In this document: positions 1,638-21,685 of the stretch, in pieces | Numbering within the stretch: the first letter of the stretch is position 1 | Layout of the letters: the number at the start of each line of letters is the position of its first letter | Assembly (NCBI RefSeq): GCF_900110135.1 | Contig: NZ_FOCO01000026.1 | Location: forward strand, 1-43,722 | DNA length: 43,722 nucleotides | Reading direction: 5' to 3' | Source of the DNA: Pseudorhodobacter antarcticus | GTDB lineage: Bacteria; Pseudomonadota; Alphaproteobacteria; Rhodobacterales; Rhodobacteraceae | The notes under the pieces: generated by a model | Told to the model about the DNA's origin: nothing | Database searches by the model: none | Seen by the model: only the letters and a program-made list of their open reading frames with translations | Position numbers and translations under genes: made by a program

Positions 1638-4107
1638 TGATGGCCCCACGATTGCGGCGGATGACGTTCAGGATGGCGCGTTCCCCTGAGGGCGTGGCGA
1701 GATAATCGCCAACGACGCTGGGGTCGAGCACGTTGATGATGCGCGTGGACATCTGGGCTGCGGGGGCCGCTCCATCGCCATTCATCTCGACGCCAAGCCG
1801 TCCGCCACGCCCGCGCTTCAACGGCATGATGGCCTCTGGCCCGGCCTCGCCCATCAGCCCGATGCCCGACGCAAAGGGAAACACCGTGGGTCGGTTGACG
1901 ACCCCACCACGCGCGAAGGCGGTCATCTCTGAGCCGCCCGCAAACACCCCACCCTTCGCAAATCCAAAGAGGCTCGCAAGAAAGCCACCGCCGCCGCTAC
2001 CACCCCCGCCAGAAAACGCATTGATCAGCGCGTTCTCGATCGGCTTGAAGGCCAGATCGATTAGCCGGGTGGCGAGGTTTTGGGCGATGCGCGAGATTGC
2101 CCCTGCAAATGTCTCCCAGGTGAACTCGCCGGATTTGAGCGCGTCTTTGATTGGGCCAGTGATATCTTGTGCCAGACCTTGCGCGATCTCGCGGGACCGT
2201 TCTTGTGCCGCGCGGACAGCCTCGGACGTGGCCTCCCAGGCGTTCTTCGCGCTGTCGGCAGCGTCACGCAGCGCATTGCCTGCAGCACGGCCTGCACCTC
2301 CGGCACCCGCAGCGGCCTCGCTTGCGCCATCCAGTGCAGTCTTGAGACCCGTCGTCGCGCTCTGCGCCGCCGTGAGGCCGGTTGCCGCCTCAGCCGTTCC
2401 CGCAGCAACCGCCGTGCGCAAGGCCGCCACAGATTGCAGGGGCGCTGTCGCCGCCGTCGCAACCTCGCCCATCATCTCTCTGAGGCGCGCCGCCTCGCTC
2501 CTGGCCGTCTCGGCGGCGGCGGTGAGCCCCAGATCAGGTGGCGCAATCGGATCATTTGAGAACGCGGCCTGAAACGCCGCGCGCGCCTCGGCACCGGCAT
2601 TCGCCGCCGCTCCGGCAAAGGGATTCTCTATCCCGCCGAGTTCGATCGTGCCGATAAGGGGCACACGCTTCTCGATGCCAAGGACATCAAGACCGGCATT
2701 GATCCCCTCCAAAAACCCGTCGATCCGCTGAGCTACGCCGTTCAGCATGGCTTCGACACCACCGATCATTGCGTTGGCAGCGCCATAAGCAAATTCCCCG
2801 ATAGTTGCGGGCAGTGCACCCCAGAGCACTTTGATCGCATCAAAAGCCCCTTGGAATGTGTTCAGCGTGGCATTGCCAAAGCCGACCACGGCTTCAAGCC
2901 CGGTTTGCAAGGCGGCAGCGATGCTCGCGCTGATCTCTGCCCAGCCTGATACAATGGCGAGGCCTAAGGCCACCATGCCAAGACGCATGCGATCCCAGAC
3001 CTCGCGGGCAAGATCCCCCAGAAGGCCGAGAGCGGCCCCCACGCTGCCTGCGCCTTGCACCAGGCGCCCAAACTGAAATACCAACTCGCCCGCGCCAACG
3101 ATCAGCGCGCCGATCCCGGTTCGGATGAGCGCGCCTCGAAGGATCACAAGGGCGGTCGCAAGGCCTCGGACGGATAGGGCGGCAGCCGCCAGCCCTGCGA
3201 CCCAGCGCCCCGCCATGAGACTGGCGAAGGCCGCGGCGTAGGAGGCCAATCGCCCCATATTGGAACTCAACGCCTCAAGGGCAGTCCGGAGCGCGCCGCC
3301 GTCGCCTGCCAGTGCCACGAAGACTTCGGCCAGCCAAGTCACCGCCGGGGCCACGGCCACAGCGATCTGGTTGCGCAGCCCATCGAACACCATCGACAGG
3401 CTGCCCAGCGCAATCTGCGTCTGGCGCAGGGAGGCCAGCGCCTCACCGTCCAGAACAGCGCCGACCGCGCGGGCCTGATCGCCAAAGCGCGTCATCTCGG
3501 CCCCGCCGTCGCGCAGGATGGGCAAAAGGCGGGTGGCATCCGAGGCCATGGCTTCGAGATAGTAGGTCATCTCTTGCTGGCTCAGACCGGCGCGGTCGAG
3601 AGAGGTCACATAGAGCTGCAGGGCTTCTGGCCCCGAAAGTCGGGCGAACTGATCGGCTGTGACGCCTACGCGGGGGGCCACCTGTTCGAAGAAATCCTTC
3701 ATCGGCCCGCCGCCCGTCTGCAAGAAATCCCCAACCCGGTCGTTCACGTCCTTCAGGATATCTGCGAGCTTTTCCTGCTCGACCCCGACCGTGCGCGCGC
3801 CTGCCGCCCAGCGCTGGAAGCTCTCGGGTGTGGCATTGGCCACTTGTGCGAACAGCCGGATTTGATCTGCGCTCTCGGCGGCATTGCGCACAATGATCCC
3901 GAGCCCTGCGGTTGCGGCAGACGCTGCCGCCGCCATCGCGATGCCAGCCCGCCGCGCAAAAACGGCAAGCCGGGTGTTGGCCGCATCCATCTCGCGCGAC
4001 AGACGCCCAAAACCCCGTTTGCCCGCGTCGCCAATGCCCTCCAGCTCTGCACGCACCTGGCGGCCGCCGACTGCTGCGAGGCGGACAGAGACGCGTTTTT
4101 CTGCCAT
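1630..4107 (-). CDS. Phage tail tape measure protein (lambda gpH-like)
   Basis: An 825-residue protein that sets tail length and is ejected with the DNA in siphophages. It is the longest gene of the block, as is usual for tape measures, and is rich in Ala, Gly and Leu with long predicted helices. Hydrophobic stretches lie near residues 55-75 and roughly 290-400. The C-terminal part carries a Gly-rich tract (GGGGSGGGG) and then the motif GLMGEAGPEAIMPL, which I know from the C-terminus of lambda gpH-type proteins. It lies 15 nt downstream of the frameshifted tail-chaperone reading frame, as expected from the lambda order G-T-H. The start at 4107 is preceded by AAAGGA. At 825 residues it would imply a tail of average siphophage length. 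Confidence 0.9.
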   Translation of the reverse strand: MAEKRVSVRLAAVGGRQVRAELEGIGDAGKRGFGRLSREMDAANTRLAVFARRAGIAMAAAASAATAGLGIIVRNAAESADQIRLFAQVANATPESFQRWAAGARTVGVEQEKLADILKDVNDRVGDFLQTGGGPMKDFFEQVAPRVGVTADQFARLSGPEALQLYVTSLDRAGLSQQEMTYYLEAMASDATRLLPILRDGGAEMTRFGDQARAVGAVLDGEALASLRQTQIALGSLSMVFDGLRNQIAVAVAPAVTWLAEVFVALAGDGGALRTALEALSSNMGRLASYAAAFASLMAGRWVAGLAAAALSVRGLATALVILRGALIRTGIGALIVGAGELVFQFGRLVQGAGSVGAALGLLGDLAREVWDRMRLGMVALGLAIVSGWAEISASIAAALQTGLEAVVGFGNATLNTFQGAFDAIKVLWGALPATIGEFAYGAANAMIGGVEAMLNGVAQRIDGFLEGINAGLDVLGIEKRVPLIGTIELGGIENPFAGAAANAGAEARAAFQAAFSNDPIAPPDLGLTAAAETARSEAARLREMMGEVATAATAPLQSVAALRTAVAAGTAEAATGLTAAQSATTGLKTALDGASEAAAGAGGAGRAAGNALRDAADSAKNAWEATSEAVRAAQERSREIAQGLAQDITGPIKDALKSGEFTWETFAGAISRIAQNLATRLIDLAFKPIENALINAFSGGGGSGGGGFLASLFGFAKGGVFAGGSEMTAFARGGVVNRPTVFPFASGIGLMGEAGPEAIMPLKRGRGGRLGVEMNGDGAAPAAQMSTRIINVLDPSVVGDYLATPSGERAILNVIRRNRGAINA

Positions 4108-6336: not shown

Positions 6337-7566
6337 ATGATCACTTCTCGCTCGACAACATCAGTTACTATTGTCGCAATACTAAGTTGCGCTGCGCTCC
6401 TGTTTGCCGGCAATGGGCTTTTCCAGACGTTGTTACCTATCCGTGCGACACAGGAAGGCTATTCTAGCGCACTCATCGGTTGGCTTGGCACCGCATATTT
6501 CGGCGGTTTCACAATCGGGTGCTTTCTCGGTCCCAAGATCATCATGAGTGTAGGTCACGCCCGAACGTTTGCTGGTATCACGGCGTTGCTGACGGCGACG
6601 ATCCTCGCGTTTCCATTATTTGTTGATCTTCTATTTTGGGGTGTCCTGCGCGTCTTGAGCGGTGCGTGTTTGGCGATGCTCTATATTGTCGTTGAAAGTT
6701 GGTTAAACGACAGCGCAAGCAACGCAAACCGAGGTCGCACGCTGTCCATCTACATCATTGTGAGCAACATCGTCACCATGGCTGGACAGCTATTGGTCAA
6801 TTCGTTTGATACTTTGGATGCGACCTTGTTCATCCTGGTCGCCATCCTGATCTGCCTGTCTATTGTGCCGATCAGTTTGACACCGACGCCTGCGCCGTCT
6901 CCGGTCCCTTCTGCAAGGCTTGATCTCAAGGCACTTTACAGGTTGTCGCCTGTGGGCGTTGTAGGTTGTTTGCTTGCTGGTATCGTCGAAGGAGCCTTTT
7001 GGTCACTTGGCCCTGTTTTTGCGCAAGGTCGCGGCATGGGGACGGCCGATGTTGCGCTGTTGATGGCAGCGTTTGTATTGGGCGGAACTATATCGCAATG
7101 GCCTTTGGGTTGGGCATCTGATCGGATTGATCGACGGATTGTTATTTCAATGGCAGCATTTGGCACTGTCGTAACAGGTCTCGTGATAGGCTTCGATATT
7201 GTCCCACAAGGTCTGGCAACCTTTTTCGTAGCAGGTTGCCACGGCGCGTTGATGATACCAATTTACGCCCTTTGCATTTCTCACGCAAACGACGTTGTTC
7301 CAAACGAGCGCATGGTGGAGACAAGCGGGGGCTTGCTGTTGTCATTCTCGATTGGCGCAACTGCGGGGCCGATCACGGCATCACTGTTTATGAGCGATAA
7401 TCAGCCGGGTGGTCTCTTTATCTTTATAGGCGCAATTCTGTGCCTATTGGGCATGTTTGTGATCTTTCGGTTCTTGACTGAAAAGCGCGAAAAACCGCTT
7501 AAGAAGGGCCAGTTCACCCAAACGTCAGCGGCGTCGCACGTGGTATTTCCGACTGACGCTGATTAG
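6337..7566 (+). CDS. MFS transporter (YcaD-like), cargo inside tail genes
   Basis: A 409-residue membrane protein with about 12 hydrophobic segments. YcaD-family features as I remember them are visible: LLPIRA near the first helix, the pair YIVVESWLN then NRGRTLSIYII around residues 108-135, GQLLV following, and SQWPLGWASDRIDRR (about 245-260), the MFS loop motif between two helices. Substrate is unknown; I would predict export or uptake of a small molecule in the inner membrane. The gene is on the plus strand between two minus-strand tail genes, has a visibly lower GC content and more TTT/ATT codons than its neighbours, and no phage role: a probable moron or recent insertion. The start ATG has only a weak ribosome-binding site. 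Its stop lies 84 nt before the DUF6441 stop. Confidence 0.85.
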   Translation: MITSRSTTSVTIVAILSCAALLFAGNGLFQTLLPIRATQEGYSSALIGWLGTAYFGGFTIGCFLGPKIIMSVGHARTFAGITALLTATILAFPLFVDLLFWGVLRVLSGACLAMLYIVVESWLNDSASNANRGRTLSIYIIVSNIVTMAGQLLVNSFDTLDATLFILVAILICLSIVPISLTPTPAPSPVPSARLDLKALYRLSPVGVVGCLLAGIVEGAFWSLGPVFAQGRGMGTADVALLMAAFVLGGTISQWPLGWASDRIDRRIVISMAAFGTVVTGLVIGFDIVPQGLATFFVAGCHGALMIPIYALCISHANDVVPNERMVETSGGLLLSFSIGATAGPITASLFMSDNQPGGLFIFIGAILCLLGMFVIFRFLTEKREKPLKKGQFTQTSAASHVVFPTDAD

Positions 7567-12718: not shown

Positions 12719-12934
12719 TTACAGCCCTTTGCTGGTGATCACACGCACTTGGCGGATAATCTTGCGCCCCTCGGCCGCTGCGATCTCGCGGTCCAGTACC
12801 TCGATGGCTCGGTCGATTTCGGCGATGCTGCGGTAATCGACGGTCTTGCCGTCGTAACTGACCCGTGCCACGCCGGAGGAACGCTGTGCCGACAGTGCCT
12901 CACGGCGGGTTTTAAGGTCGGTGATTGTCGGCAT
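12719..12934 (-). CDS. Head-tail joining protein gpW
   Basis: A 71-residue gpW-type protein that plugs the portal and lets the tail connector bind. It reads MPTITDLKTRREALSAQRSSG, then VSYDGKTVDYRSIAEIDRAI, a clear lambda gpW pattern of two helices and a hairpin. It is correctly placed before the portal gene. Upstream, where the terminase should adjoin directly, the plus-strand DUF1186 gene intervenes, so gpW and everything after it are cut off from terL by about 1 kb. Confidence 0.88.
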   Translation of the reverse strand: MPTITDLKTRREALSAQRSSGVARVSYDGKTVDYRSIAEIDRAIEVLDREIAAAEGRKIIRQVRVITSKGL

Positions 12935-12999
12935 ATGAATTGACCCTTGGGTTAAAAGTGCTTCAGTTGATTGGCCTGCCCTCCATTGAAAGCGAACCC

Positions 13000-13893
13000 A
13001 TGACCCCCTCCGAAATCATGCGCGACCTCGCGCGGGACGACATTTTCCCAAAGGCCGCCATGGCCGCTGCAGGCGAGCAGCGCGAAGCAATAACGCCGAT
13101 CTTCCTTGAACTGGTTGCGAGGCTCGGACGCCAACACGTGTCCGCCATGCGCGGCGCTGATCTGATGGCCCTTATCCCGGTCTTCTATCTGCTAGGCGAA
13201 TGGCGGGTTATTCATGCCTATCGCCCCTTGCTTCACATGCTGCGCCGTCCGACCAGAACCCTCGATCACACCCTTGGCGATGCGGTGACGGAAGTCAGCT
13301 TTCGCGTCATCGCGGGCACCTTTGACGGCGATCTGCAGCCCTTGTTCGAGGCCATTCTTGATCTGCAAGCCGACGATTTCGCGCGCAGCTCCCTGATGAA
13401 TGCGCTTGTCCTGATCGCAGACATCCATCCTGACCAGCGGCCCGCGATTGAGGATTTCATCCGGACCTTCCGGAGGCGCCACCCCAAGGCATCGACAGAT
13501 GTGCTGTCAGGGTGGACCGAGACAGTTTCCGATCTTGGTCTTGATGACATGGCCGAAGCAGTTCGCGAGCTTTTCGACAAAGGCCTGATCCCCAAAGATT
13601 ACTGCGACTTCTCACATTTCCTCGAAGATCTGCAGGCGACGCGTGATGCGAACGGTGCCCCAGGCAACCCCCGTTACGGCGAGGGACTGATCACCGATTC
13701 CATCGCTGAGCTGTCGAAATGGCACTGCTACACAGATGCATTCTTCGAGCAGCAAAAGATGCGCAAGGTCAGCAACGACCTGCGCGTGGCGCCTTGGACC
13801 GAGTTCTTCAAGAATCCAGCACCCCCGGTCGGCCGCAACGACCCATGTCTCTGCGGCAGCGGCAAGAAGTTCAAGAAATGCTGTTTGCAATGA
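13000..13893 (+). CDS. DUF1186-like protein with C-terminal SEC-C zinc motif
   Basis: A 297-residue protein on the plus strand inside the minus-strand packaging block. The body is helical with HEAT-like repetition (EVSFRVIAGTFDGDLQPLFE and so on), which matches what I recall of DUF1186. The C-terminus is a textbook SEC-C motif: PVGRNDPCLCGSGKKFKKCC, with zinc ligands in C-x-C-x8-C-C (the same motif as at the SecA tail). Start: ATG at 13000 is preferred; a TTG at 12925 would overlap the divergent gpW gene. It ends 22 nt before the terL stop (convergent). Function unknown; a cargo gene with a role in the lysogen (for example stress or anti-phage activity) is only a guess. Confidence 0.8.
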   Translation: MTPSEIMRDLARDDIFPKAAMAAAGEQREAITPIFLELVARLGRQHVSAMRGADLMALIPVFYLLGEWRVIHAYRPLLHMLRRPTRTLDHTLGDAVTEVSFRVIAGTFDGDLQPLFEAILDLQADDFARSSLMNALVLIADIHPDQRPAIEDFIRTFRRRHPKASTDVLSGWTETVSDLGLDDMAEAVRELFDKGLIPKDYCDFSHFLEDLQATRDANGAPGNPRYGEGLITDSIAELSKWHCYTDAFFEQQKMRKVSNDLRVAPWTEFFKNPAPPVGRNDPCLCGSGKKFKKCCLQ

Positions 13894-18630: not shown

Positions 18631-18999
18631 TCATTGCTGGGCCAATACCGCCCGGATTGCAGCGAGGCTGATGCCAAACTGCTTTGACAGCACGGATGGT
18701 TTGACCCCTGCCTCAATCGATGACCGCACCAGGCTGACCTGAGATCGTGTCAGATCATGGGCCGTACTATCGACCTTACCTATCCGCCGCTTATCAGGGG
18801 CCACCGGGTCTGCTTTCTGAGGTAGGTTCCGGCGCATCATTTCTTGGAGCACAGCATCCCGAAGCTTTTCCAAATCATCATCTGACGCGTATTGAAGTGA
18901 CAGGCCGAGGTTACTCGGCAAAAGCCGACGAGGCTCGTCCGCTACCACGATCGGCCTCGCAGGGTTCAGTTTTTTCGCTGGCTCATCAGATGCTGTCAT
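18631..18999 (-). CDS. Small unknown protein with C-terminal HTH-like segment
   Basis: A 122-residue protein starting MTASDEPAKKLNPARPIVVA. The C-terminal third (LTRSQVSLVRSSIEAGVKPS then LSKQFGISLAAIRAVLAQ) has the spacing of a helix-turn-helix of the resolvase/Trp-repressor style, so DNA binding is likely. The first 60 residues look unstructured. The start at 18999 overlaps the upstream DUF7220-like gene by 14 nt. It may regulate the late transition or the methyltransferase operon of which it is the last gene. Confidence 0.65.
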   Translation of the reverse strand: MTASDEPAKKLNPARPIVVADEPRRLLPSNLGLSLQYASDDDLEKLRDAVLQEMMRRNLPQKADPVAPDKRRIGKVDSTAHDLTRSQVSLVRSSIEAGVKPSVLSKQFGISLAAIRAVLAQQ

Positions 19000-19237
19000 C
19001 CTTTGAATTATGCCGCGTAACGCCAACCACCGCAATTGTGTCAAACAGCCGCCGCAGTGCATAAGATCTGGCCAAGGATATGATCACAAAGATCAGTCCT
19101 ATCACCAGATGTTCATGCAGCGTGACCTCAATACTAAACCAAGGAAACACCAGCAGCTGGGTGGCGATCGCCAGCACATAACCGACCACGACATTCGTTG
19201 CGGCCTCAACCAGCGACATGGTCCGCGACTGTTTCAC
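18986..19237 (-). CDS. Small membrane protein, DUF7220-like
   Basis: An 83-residue protein with two hydrophobic segments (about 14-35 and 43-58). The sequence MSLVEAATNVVVGYVLAIAT followed by ARSYALRRLFD near the end matches what I know as the DUF7220 family of phage and prophage membrane proteins. Function unknown. The start is a GTG at 19237 whose last two bases belong to the TGA stop of the overlapping WPTP open frame (GTGA, 4-nt overlap), while the methyltransferase frame ends 9 nt earlier. An ATG at residue 7 (19219) is an alternative start. Confidence 0.75.
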   Translation of the reverse strand: MKQSRTMSLVEAATNVVVGYVLAIATQLLVFPWFSIEVTLHEHLVIGLIFVIISLARSYALRRLFDTIAVVGVTRHNSKDDSI

Positions 19238-20424
19238 CCCGCCACCTCATCCATCGGCCAGCAGTTCAGCTGCCAGAGCTCGCAGCGCATGCGCTGCAAC
19301 CAAGGGGACCACACCGTTGCCACAGAGGCGAAGCCGGTCCACCCGGTGGGCCAGCCCATCAGCGCCTCGACGAACAGCGGGTTCAAGGTCCGGCGCACAT
19401 CGGAGGTATCGCTCCCAGCCACCTTCATCACCAGGACCTGGCGGCCAAGCAGGCCGTTGACCGGCGTGTTCGCCAATGTCGTCGCCCCGTCCTTGTGGTC
19501 GCGCGCCGTCGGCGTCATCCACATACGGCTGGCGTGGGTCAGATCGGCCGTCCGGCGGTTGCCCGCGCTCGGCTTGCAGCCGTCGTTCGCCATAGGCGTC
19601 GGCCAGTCGCGCGCCATCTGGTCCAGACCCTTCTCGTCGCGCCTCTCGCCACCCCGGCTGCGGAAACTGTCGGTCTGCGGCGTCGGCCACATCGCGGCGC
19701 TCGTTGCCAGGTTCATCCCGTGTTTGCCCGCTTCCTGTGATGGCGTTGGTTTCGTCTGCCGGTTCTCGTTTGCACTCGCCCTCGGCGTCGGCCACAGCCG
19801 CATCATTTCCGTCCGGTTCCCGCCACTCGACCGGATCCCAGAGCAGGCGCGCGGGGTCGGCCAGCGCGTCACCCTCGCGGATAGCGAGGATGAACAGCCG
19901 CTCGCGCCGATGGGGCGCACCGACTTCCGCCGCCGTAAAGAGGCCTGCCGCAAGGCGGTAGCCCATGCTGACCAGTCCGCTGGCGACTTCGGGGAAGCCG
20001 AGGCGGAGATGATGTGCGACATTCTCAAGGAAGACGAAGGGCGGTTTGATCTCACCGATGATGCGGGCGACATGTGGCCAGAGATGGCGTGGGTCATCTG
20101 CGCCAAGCCGTTTGCCTGCGATCGAAAATGGCTGGCATGGATATCCTGCACTGAGGATATCCACAGCGCCGCGCCACGGTCGGCCGTCGAAGGTTCCAAC
20201 GTCGTCCCAGACAACAGCCTGATCCAAGGCCGCGTCTTCCATCCGCGCCACGAGAGTGGCTGCAGCAAAGGTTTCCCGCTCGACATAGCCCACAGTTCGA
20301 TATCCGGGGATGGCGATGGTGAGCCCGAGGTCGAGACCGCTTGCGCCGGAACAGAGAGACAGGCCGAAGAGGCATGCGTCTGCGGTTCCAGCAACGCGGC
20401 CAGAGGGATGTACAGCCAGGTCAT
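19234..20424 (-). CDS. Overlapping +1-frame ORF with WPTP repeats (unproven)
   Basis: A 396-codon open frame that covers almost the whole cytosine methyltransferase gene in the +1 frame. Its ATG lies 4 nt after the methyltransferase ATG (ATGAATG). Residues 1-180 look like an ordinary shadow, but the second half carries repeats: WPTP at 188-191, 211-214, 246-249, 274-277, a related MWMTPTARD at 301-309, and LNPLFVEALMGWPTGWTGF at 347-365. I recall WPTP-type repeats and a closing LMGxPxGWT motif in stand-alone phage proteins. The stop TGA overlaps the GTG start of the next gene (GTGA), which favours translation. The alternative is that it is a by-product of the methyltransferase recognition-domain repeats (LADAxGxR reads as WPTPxA in the +1 frame). 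Confidence 0.4.
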   Translation of the reverse strand: MTWLYIPLAALLEPQTHASSACLSVPAQAVSTSGSPSPSPDIELWAMSSGKPLLQPLSWRGWKTRPWIRLLSGTTLEPSTADRGAALWISSVQDIHASHFRSQANGLAQMTHAISGHMSPASSVRSNRPSSSLRMSHIISASASPKSPADWSAWATALRQASLRRRKSVRPIGASGCSSSLSARVTRWPTPRACSGIRSSGGNRTEMMRLWPTPRASANENRQTKPTPSQEAGKHGMNLATSAAMWPTPQTDSFRSRGGERRDEKGLDQMARDWPTPMANDGCKPSAGNRRTADLTHASRMWMTPTARDHKDGATTLANTPVNGLLGRQVLVMKVAGSDTSDVRRTLNPLFVEALMGWPTGWTGFASVATVWSPWLQRMRCELWQLNCWPMDEVAG

Positions 20425-20428
20425 TCAT
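19247..20428 (-). CDS. DNA cytosine-5 methyltransferase
   Basis: A 393-residue C5 methyltransferase that would methylate cytosine in phage DNA. Motifs in order: SAM-binding LCSGASGLDLGL at 25-36, catalytic GYPCQPFS (Cys98), FLENVAHHL around 133-141 (motif VI), APHRRERLF at 171-179 (motif VIII), a variable target-recognition region at about 185-350 with repeated LADAxGxR-type units, and the closing RLRLCGNGVVP (motif X). No restriction enzyme gene is adjacent, so it is an orphan enzyme, probably protecting phage DNA. It starts 3 nt after the stop of the upstream methyltransferase gene. The nearest GAGG is only 1 nt from this ATG but 5 nt from the ATG of the overlapping frame. Confidence 0.92.
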   Translation of the reverse strand: MNDLAVHPSGRVAGTADACLFGLSLCSGASGLDLGLTIAIPGYRTVGYVERETFAAATLVARMEDAALDQAVVWDDVGTFDGRPWRGAVDILSAGYPCQPFSIAGKRLGADDPRHLWPHVARIIGEIKPPFVFLENVAHHLRLGFPEVASGLVSMGYRLAAGLFTAAEVGAPHRRERLFILAIREGDALADPARLLWDPVEWREPDGNDAAVADAEGECKREPADETNAITGSGQTRDEPGNERRDVADAADRQFPQPGWREARREGSGPDGARLADAYGERRLQAERGQPPDGRSDPRQPYVDDADGARPQGRGDDIGEHAGQRPAWPPGPGDEGGWERYLRCAPDLEPAVRRGADGLAHRVDRLRLCGNGVVPLVAAHALRALAAELLADG

Positions 20429-20431
20429 GCC

Positions 20432-21685
20432 TCAATCGTCTTTGTTCTTGATTTTGTTGAAGGTCTTGTCCGAGCCGGACAGAACGGCGTTCTGGCCCGT
20501 AAATGCCTGCCACCGCTTCACGGCGACATCGACATAGGCTGGGTTTAATTCGATCCCAAAGCACACTCGCCCGGTCGTTTCCGCCGCGATCAGCGTCGTG
20601 CCCGATCCCATGAAGGGCTCGTAGACGGCTTGCCCGGGGCTCGAGTTGTTCAGGATGGGCCGGCGCATACATTCGACCGGCTTTTGCGTCCCATGAACAG
20701 TTTCTGCATCCTGATCCTTGTTTGCGATCTGCCAGAGCGTCGTCTGCTTGCGGTCGCCCGCCCAGTGGCCCTTGCCGGTCTTTTTCACGGCATAGAGGCA
20801 CGGCTCGTGCTGCCAGTGATAATCGCCGCGGCTTAGCACCAGACGGTCTTTTGCCCAGATGATTTGCGAGCGGATGTTAAAGCCTGAGGCAATCAGGCTG
20901 TCGGCGACCGTGGTCGCGTGCAGTGCTCCGTGCCAGACATAGGCGACATCGCCTGGGAACAGCGCCCAGGCCTCGCGCCAGTCAGCGCGGTCATCATTCA
21001 GCACCTTTCCGGTACGCTTGGTCGCAGCGGCACCTGCCTTGTTCCGCCAGCCAGGATCGTATTCGACGCCGTAAGGCGGATCGGTGACCATCAACAGGGG
21101 CTGCACATTGCCCAGCAGGCGTTCCACATCAGTGGCCACTGTCGCATCACCGCAGAGAAGCCGATGCTTGCCAAGCACCCAGAGATCACCGGACCGGCTA
21201 ATCGGGGTTTCAGGCACCTCTGGAACGTCGTCTTCGCCGTCACGGGATGCGGCTTCGGGATCACCCCCACCCGCCAACAAGGCTTCAAGTTCATCATCCT
21301 CAAACCCGATAAGCGACAGGTCGTAATCTTCAGCCAGCAGATCGTTCAACTCAGCCGACAGCAGCGCCTCGTCCCATGCGCCGAGTTCGGTCAATTTATT
21401 ATCCGCAATGCGGTAGGCGCGCCGCTGGGCCTCGGTCAGATGCCCCAAAACGATCACCGGCGCTTCGGTCAGCCCGAGTTGCGTTGCCGCCAGCACCCGA
21501 CCATGGCCCGCTATCAACTCGCCGTCTTCCGCGACCAGGCACGGCACCGTCCAGCCAAACTCCGCCATGCTGGCGGCAATCTTGGCAACCTGATCCGCGC
21601 CATGCGTTTTGGCATTACGGGCATAGGGCTGCAAGCGCACGAGCGGCCATTGCTCGATGCGCTCCGGGGCGAAGCTGAGGGTCAT
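20432..21685 (-). CDS. ParB-domain DNA methyltransferase (N4/N6 type)
   Basis: A 417-residue fusion. Residues 5-100 form a ParB/sulfiredoxin-like domain (LQPYARNAKTHGADQVAKIA, then ELIAGHGRVLAATQ, with the GHGR box). Residues 165-400 are an amino-methyltransferase: DPPYGVEYD with DPPY at 202-205 before FMGSGTT at 358-364, i.e. a beta-class order for N6-adenine or N4-cytosine. Such fusions are common in phages; the ParB part may give DNA contact or NTP binding. Combined with the downstream cytosine enzyme it suggests DNA masking against restriction. The start ATG at 21685 follows AGGA. Upstream lies a 634-bp gap rich in TGGAYYCC repeats. Confidence 0.93.
   Translation of the reverse strand: MTLSFAPERIEQWPLVRLQPYARNAKTHGADQVAKIAASMAEFGWTVPCLVAEDGELIAGHGRVLAATQLGLTEAPVIVLGHLTEAQRRAYRIADNKLTELGAWDEALLSAELNDLLAEDYDLSLIGFEDDELEALLAGGGDPEAASRDGEDDVPEVPETPISRSGDLWVLGKHRLLCGDATVATDVERLLGNVQPLLMVTDPPYGVEYDPGWRNKAGAAATKRTGKVLNDDRADWREAWALFPGDVAYVWHGALHATTVADSLIASGFNIRSQIIWAKDRLVLSRGDYHWQHEPCLYAVKKTGKGHWAGDRKQTTLWQIANKDQDAETVHGTQKPVECMRRPILNNSSPGQAVYEPFMGSGTTLIAAETTGRVCFGIELNPAYVDVAVKRWQAFTGQNAVLSGSDKTFNKIKNKDD

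Follow-up and report, generated by a model that had tools for sequence, protein, structure and literature searches.

A cytosine methyltransferase gene and a gene nested in its +1 frame as candidates for the two halves of one phage enzyme

Why should a phage cytosine methyltransferase gene carry a second open reading frame (ORF) along its whole length? The question is raised by a 43,722-nucleotide (nt) stretch of Pseudorhodobacter antarcticus DNA (NCBI RefSeq assembly GCF_900110135.1, contig NZ_FOCO01000026.1, positions 1 to 43,722; here, the window), which holds phage genes, including terminase GpA and lambda-type portal genes. An earlier note on this DNA had described a 393-codon methyltransferase ORF (frame 0; product, alpha) and a 396-codon ORF in the +1 frame (product, beta) as nearly coextensive, which was confirmed, and had suggested that both frames may be used. 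We consider it highly probable that the two overlapping genes specify the subunits of one C5-cytosine DNA methyltransferase that works like M.EcoHK31I. Alpha would supply catalysis (motifs I to VIII and X, without motif IX), and beta, starting 4 nt downstream in the +1 frame, would supply PTP repeats and then motif IX. The repeats would occupy the place of the target recognition domain of ordinary enzymes, and the two polypeptides would be translated separately and combine to form the enzyme, the arrangement reported for M.EcoHK31I. Separate translation, complex formation, and methylation by the pair are predictions from the sequence.

By its motif content, alpha appears to be a C5-cytosine methyltransferase polypeptide. 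It matched PF00145 (E = 1.1e-31) over residues 23 to 188, covering positions 4 to 166 alone of the 324 in the profile, and phrog_363 (E = 1.2e-56) over residues 23 to 386. PCQPFS (motif IV), ENV (motif VI), and RRERL were seen by eye, and the catalytic motifs I, IV, VI, and VIII were all found. With motifs I to VIII and X, alpha has the content of the large subunit of the M.EcoHK31I type. No motif IX was seen by eye in the window alpha, and its PF00145 match ends at profile position 166; unlike an ordinary C5 methyltransferase, it does not appear to combine motif IX and a recognition domain in the same chain. In five related alphas without motif IX (a set that does not include the window alpha), the best in-frame motif-IX scores after motif VIII were -14 to -20, compared with a canonical median of 36.

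Beta contains four WPTP sequences, MWMTPTARD, and LNPLFVEALMGWPTGWTGF (residues 347 to 365), just as the earlier note had listed them. The DNA word GGCGTCGGCCA likewise recurs in three exact copies (19595, 19679, and 19784, by eye), and the fourth WPTP comes from a variant word near 19855. Beta matched phrog_1008 ("DNA methyltransferase"; E = 2.4e-19), and the beta-frame proteins matched phrog_1008, phrog_10223 (labelled DNA methyltransferase), phrog_27243, and phrog_26627 (function unknown). Unlike the reading proposed here, these four PHROG entries are silent on any overlap or two-subunit enzyme.

Relatives were collected from viral contigs by keeping the best 80 of 216 matches to beta and the best 80 of 342 matches to alpha, which often lay on shared contigs. 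Both proteins matched at E <= 1e-10 in 163 of the 165 records (164 loci and the window), the exceptions being L003 and L004. There were 94 distinct full-length genes, or 92 once two with a frame-0 stop or an N were dropped; the codon alignment held 91 genes, including the window and omitting L002. Stops in the +1 frame of related loci, which the earlier note had named as evidence against coding, did not appear: the 92 genes were open in both frames apart from the start-overlap TGA, which precedes the beta ATG, and stops in L002 and L070 within a few codons of the end. Among the 94 genes, the +2 frame had 8 to 14 stops and the three antisense frames had 0 to 10 (one of these frames was stop-free in 2 genes). 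Synonymous shuffles (500 each for 17 sampled genes of the clade) had a mean of 0.7 to 3.1 stops in the +1 frame, and the probability of no +1 stop was 0.01 to 0.34 in the 14 shuffled genes without an ATGA stop at the start. An open +1 frame is thus weak evidence by itself and was not used as proof of coding. The motifs of the +1 frame are beyond chance: WPTP occurred 3 to 4 times per gene, compared with 0.09 to 0.18 expected from the shuffles of the 17 genes, and LNP..VE.LMG.P.GWT (16 of 17 genes) and WLY[IVL]P (15 of 17) were found in no shuffle.

The pattern of variation changes frame within the gene. Diversity at frame-0 codon positions 1, 2, and 3 was 0.076, 0.049, and 0.197 in codons 1 to 190 and 0.243, 0.059, and 0.042 in codons 190 to 335. 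Since position 1 was the most variable in the second interval, the most variable base there is the third position of the +1 frame. Along the gene, frame-0 periodicity gave way to +1 periodicity across the PTP segment and was restored at motif X.

The comparison of synonymous and nonsynonymous change in both frames that the earlier note had recommended was run as an OLGenie-like count of substitutions by effect in both frames (120 low-divergence pairs). It gave a ratio for the alternative frame (ALT, dNN/dNS) and one for the reference frame 0 (REF, dNN/dSN), where N and S denote nonsynonymous and synonymous. For the whole gene (91 genes), ALT for the +1 frame was 0.24 (0.18 to 0.31) and REF was 0.25 (0.19 to 0.33). 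In codons 190 to 335, ALT was 0.10 (0.06 to 0.14) and REF was 0.94 (0.59 to 1.55); i.e., beta is under strong purifying selection in this interval and alpha is under none detectable. Alpha retains an open frame from motif VIII to motif X, with no detectable protein-level selection on that stretch. In one respect the earlier note did not stand: it had taken a LADA repeat of alpha for a recognition-domain feature, and the alpha LADA/VADA repeats are better read as the other-frame image of WPTP than as a selected recognition domain. The +2 frame, as a control, had an ALT of 2.33. For the neighboring N6_N4_Mtase gene, analyzed identically in 73 of the contigs that supplied the alignment, the +1 ALT was 0.99 (0.77 to 1.31), compared with 0.25 (0.20 to 0.32) for the methyltransferase genes of those 73 contigs.

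A second clade gave a similar picture. It comprised 40 genes among the loci found with compact betas, all from genome contigs; 38 of the record titles name Clostridia or genera taken as such, and 2 say bacterium only. Based on 150 of 492 pairs, ALT and REF were 0.97 and 0.12 before beta, 0.19 and 0.12 (both low) at the beta N terminus (codons 100 to 175), 0.28 and 0.97 over the PTP-IX segment, and 0.90 and 0.21 at motif X. In three smaller clades (5 to 7 genes), the middle was heavily gapped and uninformative for a positional view. Selection in both frames, its presence in two clades, and the neighboring-gene control support the suggestion that both frames are used and indicate that both are selected as proteins.

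Whether the +1 frame complements alpha was examined in the window's class by a survey of 142 alphaproteobacterial genomes chosen on PF00145 (i.e., on alpha) and not on beta, 53 of which had a match. The survey covered 82 loci (30 + 52) and 66 distinct Dcm ORFs; loci without the PCQ/ENV pattern gave no gene model, and five weak or short places (G051:C2:1793895, G062:C5, G077:C162, G071:C96, and G069:C157) were left out. Motif IX was in frame in 60 of the 66 ORFs (53 by a looser pattern and 7 by eye), and one ORF (L334) was a fragment. The other five (L288, L294, L296, L297, and L298) had no in-frame motif IX, and all five, like the window, carried it in the +1 frame. These counts rest on the looser pattern and the 7 by-eye genes, as the strict pattern missed many canonical genes. 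With the strict pattern, among 61 gene models, motif IX was found in the +1 frame solely in L294, L296, L297, and L298 (L288 was found by the looser pattern) and in the +2 frame in none. No further survey gene with a +1 motif IX was found among the 61 gene models or the 82 loci. Two of the five loci, L297 (G000:C19:14000-17200) and L298 (G000:C20:23800-26800), are additional, diverged alpha/beta pairs of this kind in the window's own genome.

The beta sequence LNPLFVEALMGWP shows the 13-residue spacing of motif IX, as in LTPRECARLQGFP, within the pattern LNPxxVExLMGxPxGWT. The distance from this site to motif X of alpha had a median of 21.7 codon units (223 pairs), and motifs IX and X of canonical genes were separated by a median of 29 residues (53 genes). 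A profile built from the 53 canonical motif-IX sites gave this site the highest rank in 229 of the 230 distinct beta ORFs; in 226 of them, the score exceeded the 95th percentile of the top scores obtained from shuffled betas. Beta thus has a candidate motif IX in a second polypeptide, as in the M.EcoHK31I type, and the most likely role of the PTP/LMG frame is to supply motif IX and target recognition to the same enzyme. Because the alpha segment between motifs VIII and X is unselected while the corresponding beta segment is selected, target recognition most likely resides in beta. The PTP repeats may contact DNA, and each may form a separate recognition module.

Natural rearrangements join the same parts in other ways. 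In Mycobacterium phage Ulysses (L245), gp78 (1977 to 2510) carries motifs I to VIII, and gp77 (2488 to 3072) combines LPTP repeats with motifs IX and X in a single reading frame. As annotated, the two genes share 23 bases; the open frame of beta extends upstream of its annotated start. With beta largely un-nested in Ulysses, the lack of stand-alone homologues that the earlier note had named as evidence against coding did not hold either. The Ulysses type of layout (alpha with I to VIII; beta with PTP, IX, and X) was assigned to 7 of the 11 loci of one further set. Ulysses gp77 matched positions 409 to 489 of phrog_116 (E = 6e-9), and alpha matched positions 211 to 380 of the same family. LPTP repeats and motifs IX and X lie within a 431-residue +1 ORF in L425, and motifs I to VIII, LPTP repeats, motif IX, and the start of motif X (GNG, after which the match is lost) share a single frame in L426, which is one metagenomic contig. 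In the rearranged examples, the order along the DNA (I to VIII, PTP, IX, X) was constant and only the frame assignment varied; PTP-IX is therefore read as the small-domain half of the enzyme.

Two details of such loci are recorded here as side observations. L238 has a short simple repeat (positions ~3040 to 3090; translated RERERER) where the alpha, beta, and motif X frames swap; phase variation of this tract or an artifact of assembly might account for it. In L427, the +1 ORF from ~1943 opens with a look-alike of a LAGLIDADG-type homing endonuclease (by eye), which is inserted right after motif VI of the methyltransferase; the point at which the frames split is also different in this locus.

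Several observations weigh against assigning beta to the enzyme or qualify the tests above. L427 places LPTP in the +1 frame but motifs IX and X in frame 0; the alpha ORF stops before motif IX, with beta open, in six loci (L049, L077, L177, L224, L350, and L395); and the beta match of L208 contains a stop. Beta had no sequence match in Pfam or NCBIfam or, searched alone or as a profile, in PDB; 71 beta relatives gave just scattered chance-level Pfam matches, and PF00145 failed to match even Ulysses gp77. The median motif-IX profile score was 4.3 on beta sites versus 35.8 on canonical sites, and the beta ORFs had been picked beforehand with a similar pattern. AlphaFold2 models were of low confidence both for the window beta alone (predicted local distance difference test [pLDDT], 38.6; predicted template modeling score [pTM], 0.16) and for a compact beta relative alone (pLDDT, 60.1; pTM, 0.27). 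That the PTP repeats are the recognition element is suggested by just their position and selection. The gene pairs in the selection tests are not independent. In addition, the same-phase antisense frame had an ALT of 0.39 over the whole gene and 0.28 in codons 190 to 335, so part of the low +1 ALT is a phase effect; the antisense effect was weaker than that of the +1 frame, and this antisense frame has stops in 92 of the 94 genes. From codon 335 on (the motif IX region), ALT was 0.66 (0.22 to 1.30), indistinguishable from neutral, and in codons 1 to 190 it was 0.61 (0.41 to 0.85), not clearly better than the 0.69 of the same-phase antisense frame.

Since ALT is indecisive in these two intervals, constraint on beta outside the middle is read from the fourfold-degenerate sites of alpha. 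Their diversity was 0.06 to 0.10 in codons 40 to 80, 0.04 to 0.05 in codons 140 to 160, and 0.03 in codons 340 to 360. It was 0.01 to 0.05 over codons 200 to 360 and 0.31 to 0.38 in codons 20 to 40 and 100 to 120, and the fourfold diversity of the neighboring N6_N4_Mtase gene was 0.395.

The absence of a domain or PDB match would also suit a beta that is translated but acts outside the methyltransferase, i.e., an overprinted protein in, e.g., regulation or counter-defense, as would the conserved patches in its N-terminal half, which are not known to resemble any methyltransferase part. We regard such a separate role as unlikely: where alpha lacks motif IX, the motif was found in the +1 frame and in no other place, Ulysses beta bears motifs IX and X together, and L426 holds the parts in one chain.

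The start sites bear on how the two frames would be expressed. All 91 genes of the window's clade have ATGnATG, with the beta ATG four bases after the alpha ATG; in the window, a GAGG at 20430 to 20433 lies 5 nt ahead of the beta ATG and 1 nt ahead of the alpha ATG (by eye). In the other clades, the beta start sits within alpha. There, 43 distinct beta starts, some of them doubtful, were inferred from 162 loci, and a Shine-Dalgarno core (GGAG, AGGA, or GAGG within 16 bases upstream) was present at 22 of the 43 and at 17% of 430 shifted control sites. Because the starts are conserved and Shine-Dalgarno cores occur internally, separate translation is favored over ribosomal frameshifting, which would join the frames by a shift from 0 to +1 after motif VIII and back to 0 before motif X. 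Frameshifting would fit the sharp hand-over of constraint between frames and the single-frame run of parts in L426, but it needs two opposite shifts per gene and is at odds with the separate beta starts, with the dual constraint over the beta N terminus in the second clade and with the silent sites held at alpha codons 40 to 80 and 140 to 160; we consider it very improbable. Although openness alone is weak in the window's clade and the same-phase antisense frame also has an ALT below 1, the idea that the +1 frame is an untranslated shadow of the conserved methyltransferase frame in GC-rich DNA was rejected as scarcely credible, contradicted by about 150 codons in which periodicity and ALT/REF (i.e., dN/dS, the ratio of nonsynonymous to synonymous rates) make the +1 frame constrained and frame 0 free, by the recurrence of this pattern in the second clade and its absence from the neighboring gene, and by the range of G+C contents of the loci given below.

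The two-gene arrangement recurs widely. In the 80 loci kept from the compact-beta search (G+C content, 0.35 to 0.63), alpha was one base behind beta in all 80. Among 240 loci (three sets, 80 kept each) classified by motif, 230 had the +1 offset, none had +2, 1 was a single ORF (L238), and 9 were unclassified; in 6 of the 230, alpha stops short of motif IX. These sets were chosen by beta, so the presence of beta is by construction; the constant partner and offset are the information. According to record titles, the nested pair occurs both in viral contigs and in contigs from genomes of Firmicutes, Proteobacteria, Bacteroidota, Acidobacteria, Chlorobiota, and Actinobacteria; titles also name Alphaproteobacteria, Coriobacteriia, and Desulforhopalus, the contigs being taken as genome contigs, prophage or not. 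A Synechococcus phage has it as well. A tblastn search with a compact beta gave matches in 171 of 50,697 phage records and 14 of 72,556 plasmids. At the level of sequence, the selection of both frames as proteins, the presence of a +1 motif IX where alpha lacks one, the conservation of both starts, and the wide recurrence of the architecture are established.

Existing annotation is divided between the two frames. In eight annotated phage records, alpha only was annotated in three (L003, L004, and L247), beta only in two (L002 and L005), beta plus the alpha tail in L001, and both in L245 and L246. The annotated gene is the beta frame in L005 (2505 to 3671) and L002 (1862 to 2977), and in L005 (Acidovorax phage Alfacinha3) this beta gene is named cytosine-specific methyltransferase.

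Similar systems are known among characterized enzymes. In M.EcoHK31I, the coding sequence of the small polypeptide lies within that of the large one in a different frame, and beta is likewise nested in alpha in another frame. The monomeric M.HhaI and M.HaeIII (PF00145) have the same linear order of motifs I to VIII, IX, and X along the DNA as the window but, unlike it, one chain in one frame. According to PMC3404938, M.AquI (CYCGRG) and M.EcoHK31I (YGGCCR) each consist of two polypeptides: M.AquI has motifs I to VIII in alpha and IX to X in beta, and M.EcoHK31I has motifs I to VIII and X in its large subunit, where the recognition domain is predicted, and motif IX alone in the smaller polypeptide. 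The window resembles M.EcoHK31I in having motifs I to VIII and X in alpha and motif IX in a second polypeptide. It differs from M.EcoHK31I in that the alpha segment is unselected and the beta segment selected, rather than recognition being placed in the large subunit; moreover, the window beta spans the whole alpha gene. The likeness drawn here is one of motif layout. M.AquI is also a split C5 methyltransferase, and the Ulysses group shares its layout, with motif X in the small subunit; in the window, in contrast, motif X belongs to alpha, whose entire gene is overlapped by the nested beta in the +1 frame. Among the open-access papers searched, we found none with a title or abstract on nested phage C5-methyltransferase subunits. 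The architecture has a precedent, but how widely it occurs and the lack of selection on the alpha segment appear to be new.

The features of the locus are collected in Table 1. The overlap of the beta TGA with the GTG of the next gene, pointed out in the earlier note, was confirmed, and that gene belongs to the DUF7220 family. Two ORFs elsewhere in the window are possible cargo genes: a transporter ORF of the major facilitator superfamily type (by eye; 6337 to 7566, plus strand), in a stretch of lower G+C content (0.55) and opposite in orientation to the phage structural genes, and an ORF with a C-terminal SEC-C-like zinc motif (by eye; 12925 to 13893, plus strand), lying between the portal and terminase genes but encoded on the other strand.

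Table 1. Features of the methyltransferase locus in the window
Feature	Positions	Strand	Evidence
Alpha, putative C5-cytosine methyltransferase polypeptide (393 residues, frame 0, ATG ORF)	19247..20428	minus	PF00145, phrog_363
Beta, predicted PTP-repeat/motif-IX polypeptide (396 residues, +1 frame, ATG ORF)	19234..20424	minus	phrog_1008, ALT dNN/dNS
Paired start codons ATGnATG (alpha ATG, 20426-20428; beta ATG, 20422-20424)	20422..20428	minus	Kept in relatives
Alpha motifs I to VIII; mainly frame-0 periodicity, silent sites also held at alpha codons 40-80 and 140-160	19883..20362	minus	
Segment in which constraint falls on the +1 frame (alpha codons ~188-335)	19421..19864	minus	Position diversity, ALT/REF
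Beta PTP repeats (W188, W211, W246, W274 [WPTP], and W302 [MWMTPTARD])	19510..19863	minus	
Beta motif-IX-like LNPLFVEALMGWPTGWT (residues 347-363)	19336..19386	minus	Motif-IX profile
Alpha motif X (RLRLCGNGVVP...); frame-0 periodicity resumes	19259..19345	minus	
Next gene, DUF7220, outside the enzyme; GTG overlaps beta TGA (GTGA)	18986..19237	minus	PF23858, E = 6.4e-32
Upstream N6_N4_Mtase gene, single-frame control	20432..21685	minus	PF01555, E = 1.7e-21

To our knowledge, long same-strand nested gene pairs are generally deemed rare in DNA phages; in the window, the overlap is read over about 390 codons, and it recurs in phages and in genomes of very different bacteria. More tentatively, these loci may represent a large, mostly phage-borne class in which the whole recognition half (the PTP array, perhaps as serial target recognition units, and motif IX) has moved to a nested +1 gene. 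The matching part of alpha would then be a selection-free spacer, recognition domains assigned in the alpha frame would be wrong-frame artifacts, and phages could alter repeat number or specificity without touching catalysis. If the two-subunit reading is true, many phage entries named "DNA cytosine methyltransferase" are half-enzymes that should be inactive or unspecific alone, and one could test directly where M.EcoHK31I-like enzymes carry their recognition part.

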